Position numbers and translations under genes: made by a program. A stretch of DNA of 64,000 nucleotides from Gautieria morchelliformis (lineage: Eukaryota > Basidiomycota > Agaricomycetes > Gomphales > Gomphaceae): the NCBI GenBank assembly GCA_015179125.1, contig WHVA01000024.1:372001-436000 (forward strand), written 5' to 3'. Below, one piece after another: positions 26,105-37,239 of the stretch. Numbering within the stretch: position 1 is the stretch's first letter; every line of letters starts with the position of its first letter. The notes below the pieces were generated by a model, which saw nothing but the letters and a program-made list of their open reading frames with translations, was not told the origin of the DNA and made no database searches.

Positions 26105-26433
26105 TTCCTATAGGTGAAAGCAGCACGGTGGGAGGTTGTGGGCGCGCTGACCAATGCTGACCAATGCTTGGTCATTAGTTTGTCAGCGGAGCGCGCGAGC
26201 CCCACCAGCAGTTTGCGCCACTCTTCCGGCTCCAGCGCTGCGCAGCGTTCTGGAGCGTGCGAGCGGCGCAGCCGCGAGCGGTTTAGGCCGGTCTGCCGGC
26301 TCAGGCGCTCAAAGCAGTGCTGTGCTGGCAGATCGCTGCGCAGCCAGCCGCTTTGTGCACTCCACCACCACCCTCCTCTCCTCTCCTCTCTGCCCACTAC
26401 TAGATAGAATAAAAATTGCGTGAGAGTGAATTA

Positions 26434-26733
26434 CACCTGTTTGCAGTACGTAAGGCGCGCGTCAAATTTGACTCCATTTTAGCGCGCAAAACTCGAACAA
26501 GGATTTCTCACTAGCTTCTGCTCGGATTGCCTTGAGATTTTGTACATGAACATATGTTGATCATAGCTAGGGCACAGATGTATGAAATCCAAGTAAGACA
26601 AACTTTTGAGTTTTTGCATTTTTGGCCACTAGGCTGGGTGGTCAAACACCCTTTTGTGAGTATCCAAAGGTTTGCATCACTGTAATAAATAACTACATAT
26701 TCTTCATAGGTACCAGTCTAGATAGAATAATGG
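26434..26733. repeat. Left terminal inverted repeat of the giant mariner
   Basis: About 300 bp alignable with the complement of 36350-36641, with scattered substitutions and small indels. Similarity starts at the TA target site and ends at GATAGAATAATGG, which contains the ATG that opens the transposase frame on the other side. Confidence 0.9.
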
Positions 26734-26979
26734 CTAGTTGTTGACCCGCTACCGCCACGTCCATAAGCCCCAAGAGAAGACTGTTCGACCTACTACCAAG
26801 GATAGCAGACGCACATCCGCCGCCTCATGCTCGAATGTGCCTCTCCTGCATGATAAATACCGGGTTTAAGGTGACTCTACACCAGTAACTAGTAATGCGC
26901 TCCGCGCTACCAGATGTCACATATATAATACTCCTTACTCTAGGCAGTACTCGTACTCGTACTACGACCGCTCGACTGG

Positions 26980-27590
26980 CTCGCTCGGAGGTCTTCAATC
27001 CTCGCGGCCCGGGTAAACTCGTGGATCACATGCACAAATATTCCCCGAGTGGGCCTGGACCGCGCAGTATATCGATCGTAACAGCGTGCCTTAGAAGCAA
27101 CTCGCCTTTTGTTAGAGTGCCCATCGGCGCCCCGGGCTGTCCCGCCCTCGCCCTGGACGACGCCGCCTCCGCCGCGCCCTTCGACACCTTCGCGTGGCCC
27201 CCCGCGTGCCTCGCCGCCGTGCACCGCATCCTCGCGCTCGCGCCCCGCCTCGCGCGCCTCGCCCTTGTCAACGTGCCCCCCGCGCACTGGCCCGCCCTCG
27301 CCGCGCGCCTCCCGCCACGCCTCAGCACGCTCACCGTCGGCCCCGCGTGCGCCTCCTCCGCGTCAGCGTCAGGCCACACGCCGCGCGCTCTGCTGCGTCG
27401 ATGCCGTCCTCCCCAGCGCGGAGCTCGCGTGCGCTGCCGTCGAGCCGGTGATCGCGAACTGCGCGCTGCACATGGTCTGCACCGTGAAGAAGAGGGACAT
27501 CCCCGCGCAGGAGAGGAGGAAGAGGCGGCGGTGCCCGGTGCGGTCGCAGAGGAACGACCGCCCAGGCGGGTGTCACGGGAATTAAGGGGT
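26980..27590 (+). pseudogene. GC-rich fragment, F-box/LRR-like host gene piece
   Basis: Base composition jumps to very high GC with Ala/Arg/Pro/Leu-rich frames. The plus frame has leucine-rich spacing (LARLALVNVPPAHWPALAARL, then PPRLSTLTVGP), as in basidiomycete F-box-like proteins. The frame shifts near 27390 to VDAVLPSAELACAAVEPV and stops at 27583. No F-box motif, start or splice pattern is clear, so the family is a guess from leucine periodicity. It is cargo of the surrounding transposon. Confidence 0.4.
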
Positions 27591-28099
27591 CGGCATGGAA
27601 GACCGTATGATGTATTAGACAATTCTTCAGGATGATTGTATCCTTGTGAATGATGATCTTGGTGATCATAATGCGGGCAAACAGGTATAGGTGAAATCTA
27701 AGATTATAATATGATTGCTGGCAATGCGTGTCACATCGTAAAGAATGCGCACCTTAGCTTTGGGCCGGGAATTGCCAATAGACCTAAGCTGGCCCAAACG
27801 CTCTGACTGGCGCAGGGGGCCTTCCATTATTTTGCACAGGACTTGCTATTTTACTTGAAAAAAAGATAGAAACAAGCCTGCGACAAGCACTCCAGAGAGC
27901 ACAATGCAACAAAGCACAGATCCAGTCAGCATCATGAATGTAGATTCAAAGAAGGAAAAATTACCTCCACTGTGTCTGCAGGTGCGCTAAGATATAATGT
28001 CAGAGTAGAAGGAACGAGCGAGCGTGAAGTACGTTACTCACACGTAAAAATGAGTCGGCGTTATCCGACCCGATTCGACTTGCTGTAGCCGCTGCAACG

Positions 28100-29743
28100 A
28101 TGGGGAATGGTAAGAACAAAAGGAAGCCTTCTAAGTCTGGTAGAGATAATATGGTCAATGAATCATTGGAAAGAACATTACCTGGTCAGTATGTTATAAT
28201 AATGGAATTTCATCAAAAACTGACAAAATGATCTACCAGCTGATGAAACCGGCACTTCTCGACCGAAGCGTCAGGCAGCAAAAAAGGTCCAATTCGCTGA
28301 CATGATGGAACCGGCCTCAGATCAAGAAGAGTTTCGACCGGAAACCGTATCCGAGGCCGAGTCCAACGAGCTACCGGACGGCTCAGAATCTGAGGAGCCA
28401 GTAGATGTCGTTCATAAACAGGTAAAGGATGAGCCTAGTATGTATTTTAATATTTTTATTATATATATGCTCATGCTTTATCTAGACATTGTCTTGCGTG
28501 TTCCGGATTGTACCGAACCGGAAGGATTTATTGAACGTGTCAAAATCCCAGCTAGTGCGCACTTCAATGACGTGGAGGAGCGTGTTTTCAAAGCCATTGG
28601 GTGCTACAAAAATGTGAAAAAAATGCCCCAGCTAGCTTACCGCCTCAAAGGAGTGCGCGACAAGCATCTCTCGAAGCTTGCCAAGGAAGATGACTGGGCC
28701 ACTCTCAAGGATGATGTGAAGAGCGCTCAGGTAAAGAAGAAAAAGCGTGATGCGAGTGGGGTAGAAGTAGAGATCGTCCTGGATGAAGATGTAAGTGTGC
28801 ATATGGATCGTCATGGCAGCCGTATCTGATATTGTAGTATTTTAGTACATGGCATCACTTCGGCACGCACTTTCTGGCAAAAAAGGAAAAACGGTGGCAA
28901 ATAATGGTGGCAGGGGCAGAAAGAAGAGAGAAGCTCGGATCCACGATTTGAACGCTGATTCTGATGCCAATTCAGGGTCTGACATCGAAGAGCGTGGCCA
29001 GTTGACAAAACGGGAAAAGGATTACATGGAGGCGTTGAAGGCGGAATATTCTAACTGCGGCAAGAGCACTTGCGTTGCAAAGGTTTGCAAGCTAACCAAG
29101 AATGGAGAGCATGCACATTTGTCCTGGAACCAACTGCAATCCTGGGTGGTGGCCTTGGTATGTACATACACTGTATCCATGCTACTCACTGCTAATAATG
29201 CACAAATAGGTTTCTGAGATGCATGGTGTCACTCTGAAAACTCCACCAAACAATTCACATTTCCGAGACTTCCATTACCGTAAAGAAGAAAATGCGGTTC
29301 CAAAAGAAAAGTCTGAAGAGGTGCCGATGCAGAACATACCCGGTCATGCCCCACTCGGCGTTCAAGGCTCTTTTCCCGTCATGCAGTTTCCTGGCTTCTT
29401 CCCACAATACGACTATCGAGCACTTGCTCAAAACATTTATCCCGTCCATCCCGCCACTCCACCCAACTCTCGAAAGAGTGAGCCCATTCCTACAACACCT
29501 GGGAACATTGATTTTCCTAGCATCAATGACTTTCTTGAGGAGGTTCGTACCTGGCCCGAAGCCAGAGGCCGAAACATCGATTCCCTCAAAGAAAGATTTG
29601 AAACCAACCAGGTGTATTTTCTAAACGAACTAAAGGACATAGCGGTAGATACTATCATGGCAAACATTGGATTGTCATGGGGTGACGCTAACTTTATCAC
29701 ACGGGCTGTCAGGAAAGCTATTAGGAATCTTGTCAGGGAATAG
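28100..29743 (+). CDS. Five-exon gene of unknown function, cargo of the giant mariner
   Basis: Exons 28100-28184, 28240-28437, 28486-28790, 28846-29157 and 29210-29743 join in frame across introns of 48-55 bp with good donors (GTCAGT, GTATGT, GTAAGT, GTATGT). The product is 477 residues without a stop. It has a basic N-terminus (GKNKRKPSK), an acidic stretch, and a central part with LAYRLKGVRDKHLSKL. Next comes a nuclear-signal-like patch GRGRKKREAR, and a Lys/Cys segment (KREKDYMEALKAEYSNCGKS). The C-terminal 70 residues (PSINDFLEEVRTW to RKAIRNLVRE) resemble a SAM-like helical domain. No enzyme motif. It is the best-preserved cargo gene. Such proteins are common in basidiomycetes, but I cannot assign a role. 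Confidence 0.75.
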
Positions 29744-29944
29744 GTGGGAGACGGTCATGGATCATTATGAGGATCAGTAGAACACGAGTCATTGCTATAG
29801 ATTTAGCGCATGCGTTGTTGACGAACATCAGTCTAAATATAATGTTCTTCGTTATATGGAGCTCGAGACGTTAAAAAAAAATTTATTTATTTTTAATATT
29901 TTTAATCCTACTCAGAACAATATTGTAAAAGCCAACAATAAAAT

Positions 29945-30515
29945 TTAAAAATAATTTGAGCTTTTGCCACCAATGCCAACGAAAATTTCCTGCCATTCGC
30001 GCAGGTCTGCGTTTTGAATGATGTCCGTGAGGTCATTGGTCACGATCGACTGATATAGACGAAGGTATGGTAGAATAGTCGTCTGGCGTTCGAAATAGGC
30101 CTGCGTATTTTGCAAGAGCTCCACGACTCCTTTGACTGCAAGTAAAATCGCGTCTGCGAAATGGTCGGAGGCAATGCAGAGTGATACACGGACTCGAAGC
30201 CATGGCCGCATCTCGATTTCTACGCTGCGAAAGAAAACTCCATTGAAGATCATCAAAGTTACCCCAAGATAATATCGTACCGTTTGTCAAATTCACCAAC
30301 TGCTCAACAACGGGTTTTGAGAGCGTCTCACAGTTGAGAGCATCGAAAAGGGCATCCAGTCGTCATTCCATGTCATCAACCATACGCTTTTGCTGTGGCT
30401 AAATCAACAGGTCAGGAATGGGCAACTAACATAATAATCGTGCGTACGGGGGAAATTTGCCTTAAACATCTCAGCTCCTCTGAGAGGACGCTATACGCAG
30501 GCTTAGACGACTCTG
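29945..30515 (-). pseudogene. Sec31-like coat protein fragments, rearranged
   Basis: Minus-strand exons lie near 30515-30447, 30398-30281 and 30224-29945. The second reads QQKRMVDDME, stop, RLDALFDALNCETLSKPVVE, close in pattern to the SRA1-like C-terminal domain of fungal Sec31 (COPII outer coat). The third ends with TILPYLRLYQSIVTNDLTDI and IQNADLREWQEIFV, which resembles the alpha-solenoid region that lies N-terminal in Sec31. The order here is reversed relative to the normal protein. A TGA (30363-30365) replaces an expected basic residue. The assignment rests on remembered family patterns. Confidence 0.5.
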
Positions 30516-31194
30516 GTATGTGACTACGATCTCCGGGAGCTATTCAGTAACCAAAGAATGTCAGCATGATACTACCAAGAATATAAGTGACTCTTTGGAC
30601 GTACGGTGTTTTACAGAGGGCGCTACGTCTTTGGGTGGAGGAGTGGGAGTGATTGGAGGTGAGCGCCGGGCACATAGGTATTCTGTGATGAAGGATATGA
30701 GCACCGGATGCTACTACCGTATAAGCGCTTGTGGAATTTGTAAGCCGATACACGCTCAGAGCCCTATAATGTGCAGGCAGGCTTGGGGCTGCCAATTATT
30801 ATGTTATAGTCGTTTCAAACCATCATAATCATCGAATAAGCATCATGGAGGCTCTGTAAGTACTGTCCAAGGGATTCACCTACTTACAAGCTTGAAGTAT
30901 CCGTTCCAGCTCTCTCATCGATATCATGTTAGCACCATCACGGTGTGGTAGCTCACACAGCATATCCTTCGCCACCATCTCCATCCTCATCCTCATCATC
31001 TTCCTTGTATCCTCGTCATCTTCGCTGTCTGATACGCCTTCGAACTCATCAGACTCTGGTTCAAAGAGGTGAGTGAACTTAAGGTTCACATCAAGAACCT
31101 TCAAAGGAAGGGTGGCAGCGGAAGGGATGGACAGATCCGCAAGCAACAGGTGCGTACCACCTGTGATAGACCGAATATATTCGCTTCACCGTAG
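30516..31194. other. Cargo stretch without a clear gene
   Basis: One minus-strand frame, 31146-30880, gives 88 residues with an acidic run (EPESDEFEGVSDSEDDED) and a C-terminus GANMISMRELERILQACK. It has the look of a gene fragment but I do not recognise it. The rest holds nothing supportable. Confidence 0.3.
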
Positions 31195-31608
31195 ATGGAA
31201 AATGCAGATGGGCTTGGTGAAGCAGAAGTTCGTCGAGGCCATTCAAAACTATCAACAGGTGGAACAGCAGTACCGGGCTAAGTACAAACAACGCATGGAG
31301 CAGCAATTCAAGATTGGTAGTCAATAGTCACCTGTCGATGCCCTCAAGCTGATTTCTGTCTAGTCAAGCCTGATGCTACCCCCAATGAAGTCAAGGTGGT
31401 AGTCAACGACGACCAGGGCGGACAGATCTTCGCTCAAGCTGTAAGGTTCATTCCTTTTGTGCTTCGTTTATCTCATCCCGCGTAATAGCTTCAATCTTCC
31501 GATCGCTACGGCGAGTCGCGCGCGGCCTATCGTGATGTCCAAGAGCGCCACGAAGACATTAAATGAATTGAGCGTACTCTGGGCGAGCTGGCGCAGCTCT
31601 TCAGTGAT
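31195..31608 (+). pseudogene. Plasma-membrane syntaxin (Sso1-type) fragment, middle exons
   Basis: Exons 31195-31316, 31364-31440 and 31489-31608 give KQKFVEAIQNYQQVEQQYRA, VKPDATPNEVKVVVNDDQGG and RYGESRAAYRDVQERHEDIK. After a TGA (31564-31566) the frame continues IERTLGELAQLFSD. This is the region between the Habc domain and the SNARE helix of exocytic t-SNAREs. Family members have Arg at the stop position, so TGA probably came from CGA. The exon junctions are clean, so genomic DNA was copied, not mRNA. The next syntaxin exon appears 2.6 kb further on, after a Tom1 fragment. Confidence 0.82.
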
Positions 31609-31658
31609 GTAAGTCCTTAGCAGACCTTCGCAGGGCGCTGTGATGTCATCCCTATTAG

Positions 31659-34244
31659 ATGAGTTCCTCGAGGGCCTGTTCCAACATACTCCACGCTGTC
31701 GCGATTTTATCACCAAAACAGATGGCCTTGATCGCTTGGGTAGGATCGTGACACTTCCGTGCATCCCCTACAATTATGCAAGCTCCCCTGGATCCGACGC
31801 GCTGGTTCAGGTTTTACGTGCCATGACAGATGTAGCACCTACCCAGACCATAAGCAAGGTCTTGGGCCAAGTCCGGGCTTCATTAGACGAAACTCGCGAA
31901 TTCTGGGGCACCATGGACAGCAAGTCCAAATTGTTGTGCTACGTGGACATCTCGAGTGAGTTCGAGTTCGTTTGTGCCTTCTTTGTCTTAACCGTAGATT
32001 CTCAGCGGACGAACAACTACTTGAGGGTAACCTAAAATTCCGCAAGCTTATCGCCCTTCATACTCGTGTCACTCTCATGGCCGATATATTTTCGTCATCG
32101 ACTTATACGCATGGGAGAGCCTCGCTGTCGTTGCTGTCAGGCCTTACAGGAACTGACGCTTCGGATATCCTTCCGGATATTGGTGCTCTTCACCGTGCAT
32201 GCATTTGGGAAAATATAGTCTTGAAAAGTGCTTTGTCAGCACGAGGTGTCAATGTCAGCCGTAGTAATCCAGGCGTCCCCTCAGATGGTATCTCGTTGGC
32301 CGGTCAGGCAACTGACCTATCAAATGAGGTTGAAGTTGGATCGGCTCTCCCAGAATCGGAGCAATCACTTGACGAAGGAAAATCAAAGGAAGGTGTAAAA
32401 AAGGATGGCCCGTGGGAACGCACTGCAAAGGCGTTGAAACATATTGCGACCCAGATTCCTACCTCTCTCACACCTTTCTTTCAAGGTATGCCCGGTGGCA
32501 GCAACCCTATCCTCTGTGCATGACCCATTTGTCATAGCCGTTGTGAAGTTACCTTCGTTGCATAGGCGGAGCCCGGACGCTGGACAGAAGCGTCAGGCTA
32601 TTACGATCGGAAGCCATGTTGCGAAGGTCGCCTTATGTCATCTTGAGTGGGAAGGATCTGGTATGCTGTTGTTGCATGTTAGTCGACCTTAACTAAGATG
32701 TGCTCTGAAGACGACATACTGGCATCTTATGCTTATTGGACAGTGATGATGGGCCTAATTACGGTCCTACTGTTTGAGGGTATGTGCAATTAGAGCCACA
32801 ATTTCACGGGTTATTAATGGACAATTGCAGAGCGCAGCAACATCCACATGATGCTCATCGTGGCCTTCCGCAGGGTTGGAGGCCTAGACACACTGTTGGC
32901 CATCTGTCGCCGATATGCCGCCGCCGTGGATCGTATTGTTCAGATCAAGACTGCTGACGGCAGCGAAGATGACAAGCAGCAACCTGTTCACGTCTTTGGC
33001 GGTCTGAAGGTCGCACTCCATCTGTTGCACTCGCTGGTGTCATCAAAGCCATTATTTGAGTCGCTGCAAACGCTCTTGCTCGTGACCAGGGATATGAAAG
33101 ACACAGACCCCGAATACTTCGAGCCTCAAGACTTTCTTGTCAAATTGAGATCGGCTGTGTTGCCCTTTGTGCGCGAACTATGGGAGTCGCCGTGGTTGGT
33201 TCAGGCGCCACTGAGCGTCTGCAAATCTGTTGTCCTGACCATGCTAGAGCTCATGGCTGGCGAGAACGAGGAGCCCAAAGGCGAGTCTGCTCCCGATGTC
33301 TTGCCTACGTCAGTGGGGGGTTCCAATGTCCTTCACCGCCATGTTGGGCCGGATGAAAACGGTATACAACAGTTGTGCGACATGGGCTTTCCACGCGCTG
33401 CCGCGGAACGTGCATTGGTTCAAATGCGCAATAATGTCACCGCTGCCGCCGAGTACCTTCTAGCACAACCATTGCCATTCCCACCTGACGTGGATCCAGA
33501 TGACGCCAACTCCAAAGATGTTGCTCTCGACCCTCCGGCTTCAAACGAACCTTTAGGTGTCGAAGCAGAGCCTGTGGTCAGCATCTGTGACACCCCAACT
33601 GATACCGAGATGACTGCAGTAGTTGACACTAACGTGGCATCAACTCGTGTCGAACCTGAGGACACGGCACCTGAGGTAACCGTTGCGAAGACCTCAGAGC
33701 AATGGCGAATAGGACTTGGCGAGCAATGAGAATCAGTCAAGGAAGATGTCGGTCGAGGCGCTCTTCGTCTTCTAGACGAACATCCGTCGCTTATTTTCGA
33801 CGTCAAGAACGCATTCATTGGGCCTTTAGATGGATACTCATCACGAACTCTACCTCTCATTATTCAAGATATCAAAGATTTCTCGCCGGGTGCATATGAG
33901 ATCCACGAGCAACCCCTTGCTGTTCATTGCCGCTTGCTGGCGCTAGTTCTCAATGAGGTTGGATCATTGGAGACCCGACTGCCTGCCAACGCCTCCAAGG
34001 AACTGATGGACGTTTTTCTTGCTCTGCTGCTAGCGCATCCTTTTAACGCTGACAATGAGACCTCCGTCGTCCCCAAATGGTTAGCACCTCATCTCTTAGT
34101 TCCGGAGGCACTCCTTGTCATGGGGGATGAACCTCACACCATTACCATTCCACAGGAAGATGAGGAAATTTCTCAACAGGCCATTACAGATGAACCATCA
34201 TATCCCGCGGCTCGACAAAATATCTTCCAGTTTTGCTTGAAGCT
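31659..34244 (+). pseudogene. Tom1/HUWE1-type HECT ubiquitin ligase, N-terminal fragment
   Basis: The fragment begins DEFLEGLFQHTPRCRDFITK and continues over several short introns. It includes DIGALHRACIWENIVLKSAL, IPTSLTPFFQ, a block AVVKLPSLHRRSPDAGQKRQ and HIHMMLIVAFRRVGGLDTLL, all typical of the armadillo-like DUF908/DUF913 part of Tom1. A UBA domain follows (IQQLCDMGFPRAAAERALVQ, about 33361-33465). The last part reads LIIQDIKDFSPGAYEIHEQP and ARQNIFQFCLKLL. One in-frame TGA lies at 33727-33729; otherwise the splice sites and frames look sound. The HECT catalytic domain, thousands of residues further on, is absent. It cannot be an active ligase. Confidence 0.82.
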
Positions 34245-34827
34245 CCTTTCGTTGAGCAGCAAGATGAAACCATCGAGACTATCCAGATGGCAGCCATGAA
34301 TGTCGAGAAGGACACGGAAGTCGGGTACGTCCTTGGCTTCTACGAGTCGATGCCTGTCTGTCTATGACTGGCTGACATGCTACAGGTTACTCGCCGATCT
34401 CTGGCGTATGTCACAACACAGGTGAGAAAAGGCCTGACAATCGCTGGTTACCGTTGATCTGGTCTCTACCTCACCCAGACCCGATTCGCGTTATCCTCGG
34501 AGGAGACGAATAAAAAGATCGGCCGTTCATTCGATAACACCCAGTTTTTCTGGCACTGGTGAAGTTTTTAGAAGACCCGGATTTTGAGGAAGAGGTACAG
34601 GAACTGCTGCACTGGTGGAATAGGTATGCCATTTCTGCAAGATGAACGTCACTAACACTCACCAATTGCAGTCGCCTTTTCCCAAACAAAGAAGAATTGA
34701 GGGACAAGGAGGACATGATGGACTCAATAGCATTGCTGAAAGCTCAGAAGGCAGTAAAACGTGTAGCTCTCCAGAGTGCTATGAACCATTTAACAACGCT
34801 GTAGTCCCCCTTGAGGAATTTGATTGA
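34245..34827 (+). pseudogene. Syntaxin SNARE-helix exon joined to DUF6698-like exons
   Basis: From about 34245 to 34328 the sequence reads VEQQDETIETIQMAAMNVEK DTEVG, the start of the syntaxin SNARE helix that should follow the exon ending at 31608. A donor (GTACGT) follows. The next acceptor (CTACAG, near 34386) leads not into syntaxin but into VTRRSLAYVTTQ, then TRFALSSEETNKKIGRSF, LEDPDFEEEVQELLHWWN and RLFPNKEELRDKEDMMDS. That pattern fits the C-terminal part of a basidiomycete DUF6698-type protein of unknown function. The transmembrane tail of syntaxin is missing. Confidence 0.6.
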
Positions 34828-35059
34828 TGGCTTACTGTATACTGTTATTTGAGGTTTCTTGAATATCCATGTACTATGTTGGATAGCAAATGCAAGGTTT
34901 CGAGGAGTTTGGATATGAACGATCATATCCCTCACAGGATGTGAAACACTAATGACACCAAAACTCGTCATATACTGCTCAGGTAACGTGAGCTACAACA
35001 AAAATCAAGTACACTGCAGTTACAGACTCATGCTTCCCACAGTAGCATATCCTCCAGTC
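34828..35059. other. Short spacer, no gene
   Basis: AT-rich sequence between the last cargo exon and the 3' end of the transposase gene; possibly their two 3' untranslated regions. Confidence 0.4.
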
Positions 35060-36263
35060 CTACAGATAACCCGAGTCCTTCATCCATCCTTGCGCATGTC
35101 TCGACGTAATCTGATCCAGTGCCTCATACAGAAACATGAATGGTCGGGCCTTCTCTTACTTGCAACGCAGGCGCGGAACTCAGCACCGTGACGTCTGAGG
35201 TGAGCTTTGATAAACGAAAATGATTCTTCTATGGGGTTGAGATCGGGCGAGTATGGCGGAAGATATACTAGTTTGACTCCTCTGCAAACATACAACATTA
35301 TTAGACACTGCTTGCGCAAACAGACAGTCGGTAAGATACCTTTTGGCACACAGGACCTTGACCTCAGGTACGTGATGTATGGCGCAATTATCCATGACGA
35401 GAACACTTCGAGGTGCCGGATAAGGGTTCATGACCTCTAACAGACCTTCAAGAAACGCAAGAAACGCGTCGCCATCGTATGCGCCCAACTTGATGTCACT
35501 ATATATAATGCCATCTTGGGATAGTGCCGGAAGGATTGAAAACCTAAATCAACGTCAGTGATACATAAAAGAGAATTATATACAGACCGTCACCTCTCGC
35601 CTCTTTGGAAGCGTGCCCGAACACGAGGTCTGCAGCCCTTAGAAGCCCATCCCATTAGCCTGTAAGTCGTACGAAGATCTATCGCACTTTCGTCTGTAAA
35701 AACTAGGCGTTCGGGTGGCTCAGCACCGATGTATAACTGGAAAGCTGTCCGTGAACCTTCACAGCGCTCTGCTGCTGCCCGGGAAAGCTGGATTGGAAGC
35801 AATAAGGATTGTGTGCTCCTGCAGGATTTAACAACTCACCTTTTTTCTTTGCAAACCAAGATTATGGAGTGTCCTCCATACAGTTGAAATACTTACTGTA
35901 ACGCCATGCTGTACTTCTAGCTCTTCAACGAGTTCATCAAGGTAAAGGTCAGGTGAGCGTTCAAGAAGCGCGAGAAGAAACTATTATAAAATAAGTGATA
36001 GCTAAACCCAGGTACAAACAGCTTACTTCAATCTGAGTTGGCGACATCTTTGAACCACGAGAGAGCCGTCTTGGCTCTGTTACAACATCTCCGATATCGC
36101 GCCAGAGCTTGATTGTGCGCTGAACAACGCGCAATGACATGTCAAGATCAATGGCAATCTGAGTTGATGTCTTTTGAAGCTTGAATTTCTGGTGTATAAC
36201 CCGATCCCGCAAGTCCTTGCTGTAATGGCGGCGAACAGGATGAGGGTTGAGAGGGCGAGGCAT
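35060..36263 (-). CDS. Tc1/mariner transposase, DD34E
   Basis: Exons on the minus strand: 36263-36027, 35980-35840, 35787-35594, 35543-35340 and 35281-35160, with a last part to 35060. The N-terminus has helix-turn-helix DNA-binding sequence ([35 protein letters not shown]). The catalytic residues are Asp in VFTDESAID, Asp in [10 protein letters not shown] and Glu in [12 protein letters not shown], with 34 residues between the last two. Introns have GTAAGC, GTGAGT, GTGACG and GTATCT donors. Near 35140 either a poor intron or a one-base shift separates ACVAS from [16 protein letters not shown], so the C-terminus may be damaged. A further upstream ATG (36353) lies in the TIR. It is the likely motor of the 10.2-kb element. 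Confidence 0.82.
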
Positions 36264-36349
36264 ACGGATGACGTACAGTGTTTCCGGAAGTTCCCGAAAC
36301 AAAGACTTCGACTTCAAAGTCTTAGCTAAGTATCGACAACAATGACTAT

Positions 36350-36641
36350 CCATTATTCTATCTAGAGGTACATGAAGAATATGTAGTTATTCATTGTAAT
36401 GCAAACCTTTGGATGCTCACAGAAGGGTGTTTGACCACCCAGCCTAGTGGCCAAAAATCCAAAACTCAAAAGTTTGTTTTACTTGGATTTCATACTTCTG
36501 TGCCCTAGCTATGGTCAACTTATGTTCAGGTACAAAATCTCAAGGCAATCCGAGCAGAAACTAGCGAGAAATCGTTGTTCGAGTCTTGCGCGCTAAAACG
36601 GAGGCAAACCTGACGCGCGCCTTGCGTACTGCAAACAGGTG
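36350..36641. repeat. Right terminal inverted repeat of the giant mariner
   Basis: Inverted copy of 26434-26733. The outer end CAGGTG is followed by TA (36642-36643). The inner end contains the ATG at 36353 that opens the transposase frame. Confidence 0.9.
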
Positions 36642-37239
36642 TAATAGATAGCCTATATAGTGTAGTACACAAAAGATCTCTTCCCAGGGAGATCTCTGCA
36701 GTGAACTATTGGGGTTGACCTCTTCAGTGGGGCAGCTTTTTCTCTGCTAAGGAGCCAGGTAGTCATCCCAGGCTGCCTTAGAGGGAGCCACAATTGCATT
36801 GCAGTTCTTTCAGTGTTGACTTGCACTACTGGTGGCTGAAGAAGACATCTCCCCAGGACCAGGACCAGGACCAGGACCTTTTACTGGAATTATTCCAGTT
36901 GGATAGCCGAAGAAGACTTGGATATTTTCATCAAAAAAATTTCCCATCCCTTCCTTGGTACATATATTTCTCTGTGGTCTGGTGTGAGCCATCTGACATT
37001 TTTTTATTTTATTTTTTTAAATAGAAATTAATAAATTCCCTGACTTTGCCTAACAAACAGACTCCCTGTCCCTTCCTTGGTATGTATGTATTTCTCTGTG
37101 GTCTGGTGTGAGCTGTCTGACATTGATTTAATTAGAAATTAATAAATTCCCCTGACTTTGCCCAAGAAAAATTAACAACAGCAGCATCTGCTTGCAAATG
37201 TAAGTTGAAGTGGGGTAGCTTGATTGTTCCTCTAAGCTT

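Follow-up and report, generated by a model that had tools for sequence, protein, structure and literature searches.

The transposable elements of the Tc1/mariner type are usually 1-2.5 kb long and are commonly seen as small single-gene parasites. Gene capture by such elements has already been published for plants and, in one case, for a fungus, and the closest systems are compared here on the basis of the available parts of the papers cited. In Pyrenophora tritici-repentis, an open reading frame (ORF) is apparently sequestered between the terminal inverted repeats (TIRs) of a Tc1/Mariner family of 46 members (Manning et al. 2013, PMC3538342), so the original prediction for the locus reported below, that such an element is not described for fungi, was too strong. 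That family is likewise fungal and multi-copy with a non-transposase ORF between its TIRs, but it holds one ORF, 31 of the 46 members are almost identical, and the available part of the account mentions neither nesting of captures nor donor loci nor a range of sizes. The Pack-Mariner elements of rice (PMC8903248) share mariner-superfamily ends, host gene fragments and TA duplications with the present element, but are non-autonomous, with an example of hundreds of base pairs, and capture by fusion of neighbours. The animal Pack-TIRs, for which gap filling and FoSTeST are discussed (PMC8277862), also show capture with microhomology (median 2 bp; 67.6% have it at one or more breakpoints), and the multi-copy ones were then transposed; however, these are animal elements, and the single-copy ones mostly formed without transposition.

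The TBE elements of Oxytricha (PMC4724952) are also of the Tc1/mariner type, and purifying selection acts on their accessory genes (dN/dS 0.1-0.3), of which one is reversed and one has a kinase domain; unlike the present element, they have three ORFs and telomere-bearing ends, and the available text describes no cargo. Pleurotus ostreatus TIR_1 (PMC4905642) is a basidiomycete Tc1-mariner with a DDE_3 transposase, but it is 1.6 kb long and carries no cargo in the part of the description available. The element of PMC2572040 is, according to the text available, a Harbinger element and not a mariner, and the main text of PMC7550596, which pairs "Gautieria morchelliformis" with "transposable elements", does not contain the word "mariner". 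In the literature covered, outside which most subscription papers and preprints lie, no description was found of nested capture in a two-gene Tc1/mariner element of up to 26 kb.

The element reported here was found in Gautieria morchelliformis, a false truffle, in a window (the whole stretch of DNA analysed, 64,000 nucleotides) on contig C271 of the 122-Mb assembly. Positions 26434-36641 constitute a single Tc1/mariner-type element of 10,208 bp (Table 1), in agreement with the original prediction, which had placed inverted repeats of about 300 bp at its ends and TA on both sides. The aligned inverted arms (26430-26743 and 36340-36645) are 90.9% identical in 309 columns, and the bordering TA dinucleotides are at 26432-26433 and 36642-36643. 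The terminal 33-mer has at least 32 exact matches in the genome and at least 133 with up to three mismatches, including the ends of a sister family, B, while its reversed control has none; therefore the ends are not a product of chance. As expected of the IS630/Tc1/mariner superfamily, terminal inverted repeats are present, and both ends with TA on each side were seen in 13 of the 14 elements of the window's own family (A) that were read; the exception, C604, is missing the 16 outermost bases at one end. The only family-B element read also has TA on both sides. A Helitron, which has neither TIRs nor target duplication, was considered and rejected, because the window element has both TIRs and the TA duplication. 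No DUF3435 tyrosine recombinase of the Starship captain type occurs among the ORFs scanned for domains, a scan not dedicated to captains.

Table 1. Features of the element and its surroundings in the window.
Feature	Positions	Strand	Basis or matching loci
Left flank	26283..26433	none	part of a repeat with an element-free copy in C722
Whole element	26434..36641	none	TA on both sides; copies in C1 and C425; sites without the element
Left TIR, about 300 bp	26434..26743	+	inverted-arm alignment
Left arm, GC-rich	26744..27990	none	97-99%, common to four 4.7-kb family members
ORF2, 477 aa	28100..29743	+	predicted exons 28100-28184, 28240-28437, 28486-28790, 28846-29157, 29210-29743
SEC31 C-terminal piece	30199..30700	-	C659, C36, C550; 88-90%
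Syntaxin gene piece, first part, introns included	31075..31663	+	C281, 96.6%
TOM1-type E3 ligase piece inside syntaxin piece	31662..34251	+	C286, 97.2%
Syntaxin gene piece, second part	34249..34368	+	95.8%
Piece of multi-copy sequence	34366..34913	none	C226, 87%; other loci 69-97%
Tc1/mariner transposase, DD34E	35185..36263	-	predicted exons 36263-36027, 35980-35840, 35787-35594, 35543-35340, 35281-
Right TIR, about 300 bp, 91% identical to left TIR	36340..36641	-	inverted-arm alignment
Right flank	36642..36900	none	same C722-type repeat as left flank

Most probably, these IS630/Tc1/mariner elements are built for autonomy, have a pair of core genes and captured host DNA between the two by break repair, after which everything moved as a unit. 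The transposase and ORF2 face each other across a variable middle, and the transposase would bind the TIRs and mobilise all the DNA between them. A break inside the element would be repaired by copying another locus, with rejoining at a few matching bases; the copied host DNA would keep its introns and stay in the middle, and a capture could sometimes land within an earlier captured piece. Since the ends would be untouched, the enlarged element would still move as a unit, and the following transposition would spread the enlarged form. A large Tc1/mariner element with a once-selected second gene would thus collect and redistribute host-gene pieces, adding a fungal source of shuffled gene parts, and ORF2 offers a way to trace relatives in other genomes. 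A donor, the pre- and post-capture states of the acceptor and element-free sites are all present in one genome, which opens the capture step, and the upper size at which mariners can transpose, to direct testing.

The search for the same ends around different cargo, proposed with the original prediction, was productive: the 14 family-A elements measure 3.0, 4.7 (four elements), 5.5, 7.5, 10.2 (three), 10.8, 14.3, about 21.6 and 26.0 kb, and their interiors differ. C604 contains an N-terminal piece of PRP8 (PRO8NT, E=1.9e-58) and copia-type elements, C14 contains DUF6532 pieces, and C437 a tandem LTR-like unit resembling that of C604. This unit in the 26-kb element (C437; L048-L050) is about 5 kb long, with 499-bp repeats, in several tandem copies. 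The family-A transposase (at least 89% identity) occurs at 29 places, among which are the 14 elements read, and further paired ends outside the 14 and the one family-B element are found in C316, C981, C141 and more. A pair of ends 23.8 kb apart in C763 was left out of the count of elements, because some 7 kb separate its transposase from the end. Family B has its own 33-mer, with at least 122 matches at up to one mismatch and none for the reversed control. In the family-B element, the inverted ends match along 676 bp, and a long minisatellite-like stretch (L060, 7500-8400) lies beside one TIR. Within family A, the elements of the window, C1, C164, C1004 and C714 are 96-99% identical to the 4.7-kb subgroup in the left arm and 89-92% in the transposase arm; by these identities they are a mosaic of two subgroups, so arms have been exchanged.

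The predicted host-gene pieces on both strands proved real for SEC31, syntaxin and TOM1, and captured host gene fragments thus lie between TIRs as in Pack-TYPE elements. The donor-side protein of the SEC31 piece matches PF07304 (E=9e-9), and its best solved structures are SRA1 (2.7e-5) and then SEC31 (7.7e-4). For the syntaxin piece, matches of 96-97% were found at three loci (C281:31331, C281:139726 and C560:638); as each of these two pieces matches three loci, their exact donors are uncertain. The two syntaxin loci on C281 are 108 kb apart and possibly represent a segmental duplication or uncollapsed haplotypes.

The TOM1 piece, of the ubiquitin ligase type and 2.59 kb long, shows the capture most directly. 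It is absent from C164 and C1004, where the two syntaxin halves meet, and these two elements are the pre-capture state. The donor, C286, has an open frame of 835 residues, which continues for 1,062 bases beyond the capture edge and matches TOM1 there. At the joints, read by eye, acceptor and donor share AG on the left and TCG on the right, and 5 acceptor bases were lost with no duplication. Among random joins, 16% would share 2 bp or more and 5% would share 3 bp or more; the joints therefore fit template-switching repair without proving it, and their microhomology of 2 and 3 bp was counted as weak support; we infer that repair copying is the capture step. Compared with C286, the piece has one stop absent from the donor and a dN/dS of 0.51-0.79 in three frames, a ratio based on few changes which also takes in change on the donor side. 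When 31662-34251 is aligned with C286, 61 positions differ; at 25 of them a C of the donor is a T in the copy or a G of the donor is an A, a pattern perhaps due to cytosine deamination.

The pieces could alternatively have been acquired as in the plant Pack-TYPE model, in which neighbouring elements with compatible ends move together with the DNA between them. That model is published with Pack-Mariner examples in rice (PMC8903248, available part), and the mosaic character of family A would suit it, since the left arm of the window element is 98-99% identical to the 4.7-kb elements and the right arm about 92%. However, a scan of 15 elements found no TIR remnants in their interiors beyond the end zones, and the TOM1 piece sits inside the syntaxin piece while the TOM1-free copies have the syntaxin halves meeting, so that for the TOM1 step in particular the clean acceptor state speaks against it. 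Composite capture is therefore considered improbable, and capture by repair within an existing element is preferred.

The transposase begins with an ATG at 36263 on the minus strand, at the inner edge of the right TIR. Its catalytic residues are spaced by 83 residues (D-D) and 34 residues (D-E), as foreseen in the original prediction of a DD34E transposase starting there. The spliced protein matches PF13358 DDE_3 (E=2.6e-29) and has N-terminal HTH domains, in keeping with the superfamily, and its best database match, with 59% identity, is a protein of Sphaerobolus named Tc1-like transposase. Near the C-terminus, past the last catalytic residue, the window frame diverges from that of the family-B copy C156. 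Transposase sequence is present in all 14 family-A elements and in the one family-B element read, although it is truncated in C604 and interrupted in C1004; with such sequence in 15 of 15 elements, the label of Pack-type, that is, non-autonomous and without a transposase, does not suit them. Between the window copy and one family-B copy, dN is 0.089 and dS 1.01 (ratio 0.09), while inside family A the ratio rises to 0.82. The enzyme probably is or was active.

ORF2, the intact-looking gene of the original prediction, is indeed intact in the window copy, with 5 predicted exons, but we favour reading it as a second core gene rather than cargo. It is found in both families, and between the window copy and five family-B copies dN is 0.223-0.231 and dS 1.10-1.15 (ratio 0.20-0.21), which indicates purifying selection between families A and B on a gene apparently as old as the transposase. 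The similar dS of ORF2 (about 1.1) and the transposase (about 1.0) suggests that both genes have travelled together since the two families split. An accessory gene thus appears to be selected along with the transposase between the families, more weakly within them: the ORF2 ratio is 0.10-0.33 in 10 pairs among the five family-B copies and up to 0.86 inside family A. Such high family-A ratios (0.86, and 0.82 for the transposase) are expected if many copies are dead, so that constraint would be visible only between families. In-frame stops occur in 4 of 8 family-A copies of ORF2; of the 5 family-B copies, 4 have a stop or a slipped frame.

The other explanation of ORF2 is that it is one more captured host gene, still intact by chance in the window copy. 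Such a gene would agree with the lack of a credible match to described proteins, with its absence from 8 of the 14 family-A elements, the four of 4.7 kb and the 26-kb element among them, and with its many broken copies. This explanation nevertheless seems improbable in view of the presence of ORF2 in A and B, its synonymous divergence equal to that of the transposase and its constraint between families. Furthermore, of 19 places with B-type ORF2, 8 have a transposase within 10 kb, and the two genes face each other in 8 of 8, 40 of 172 transposase candidates having been scored; 2 others have a transposase farther off, and 9 are on contigs outside the scored transposase list. The preferred reading of ORF2 as a core gene has to allow that it is dispensable in cis, since 8 family-A elements do without it.

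Protein and profile searches with ORF2 gave the same 6 proteins, all of Gautieria morchelliformis; both searches need shared 5-residue words, so distant relatives could be missed. Nothing credible was found among solved structures or in Pfam (best E 0.021). Structure prediction from the 6 sequences gave a mean pLDDT of 37.5 and a pTM of 0.20, too poor for a fold search. That ORF2 helps transposition is a guess from its conservation. It is conceivable, though tentatively proposed, that ORF2 is a trans-acting accessory factor letting the transposase move units of 10-26 kb and that the gap between the two genes is a reused capture site.

The piece between the two core genes of family B makes a useful comparison. 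It is a kinase piece of the FunK1 type (PF17667, E 1.1e-5, with a second match at E 4.5e-4, under the curated cut-off) and was matched at all 40 scored candidates of 144. In 10 pairs among five family-B copies its dN/dS is 0.63-1.62, and 4 of the 5 have stops; it drifts as if neutral, unlike the accessory genes of Oxytricha TBE in the available part of PMC4724952. By lesions, family-B ORF2 is no better than the kinase piece, since 4 of 5 copies are broken in the one and 4 of 5 have stops in the other; the two are separated by the substitution ratio only, in different copies with few changes.

The enlarged element has spread as one unit, which bears out the predicted single, giant, cargo-carrying Tc1/mariner-type element. 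The window copy and that in C1 are 99.64% identical in 10,217 columns, with the match ending at the ends of the element, and C1 and C425 are 99.61% identical across the 8,002 columns compared; the copies in C1 and C425 are 10,205 and 10,209 bp long, and the flanks differ in all three. Sites without the element, which are paralogous repeats and not alleles, were found for each. When the window flanks are joined with one TA, 375 of 405 positions match a repeat copy in C722, which is uninterrupted at the insertion point and has a single TA at the joint, the empty site that the original prediction had proposed to look for. For C1, the joined flanks gave 771 candidates, and all 40 matches scored cover 317-318 of the 318 bases, most with the same length as the query, judged by match extents. 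For C425, the joined flanks match 6 places, of which 2 are its own flanks and 4 cross the joint (91, 90, 81 and 75%); the best two are slightly shorter than the query, again judged by match extents. Host DNA flanked by two unrelated mariners that had inserted in opposite orientations, the case that would have undone the original prediction, might be suspected from TIRs only 91% identical and arms resembling different subgroups, but this is excluded for practical purposes by three copies with the same ends and interior in different surroundings and by element-free sites for all three.

Two observations concern the surroundings of other copies. The repeat that holds the window element (window 36642-37130) has, in its C722 copy, another family-A element, inserted at a site about 490 bp distant. 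In C1083 and C347, both with 4.7-kb elements, the right flanks are 99.4% alike over 625 bp and the left flanks are unrelated, a pattern that could be due to rearrangement or to a one-sided event.
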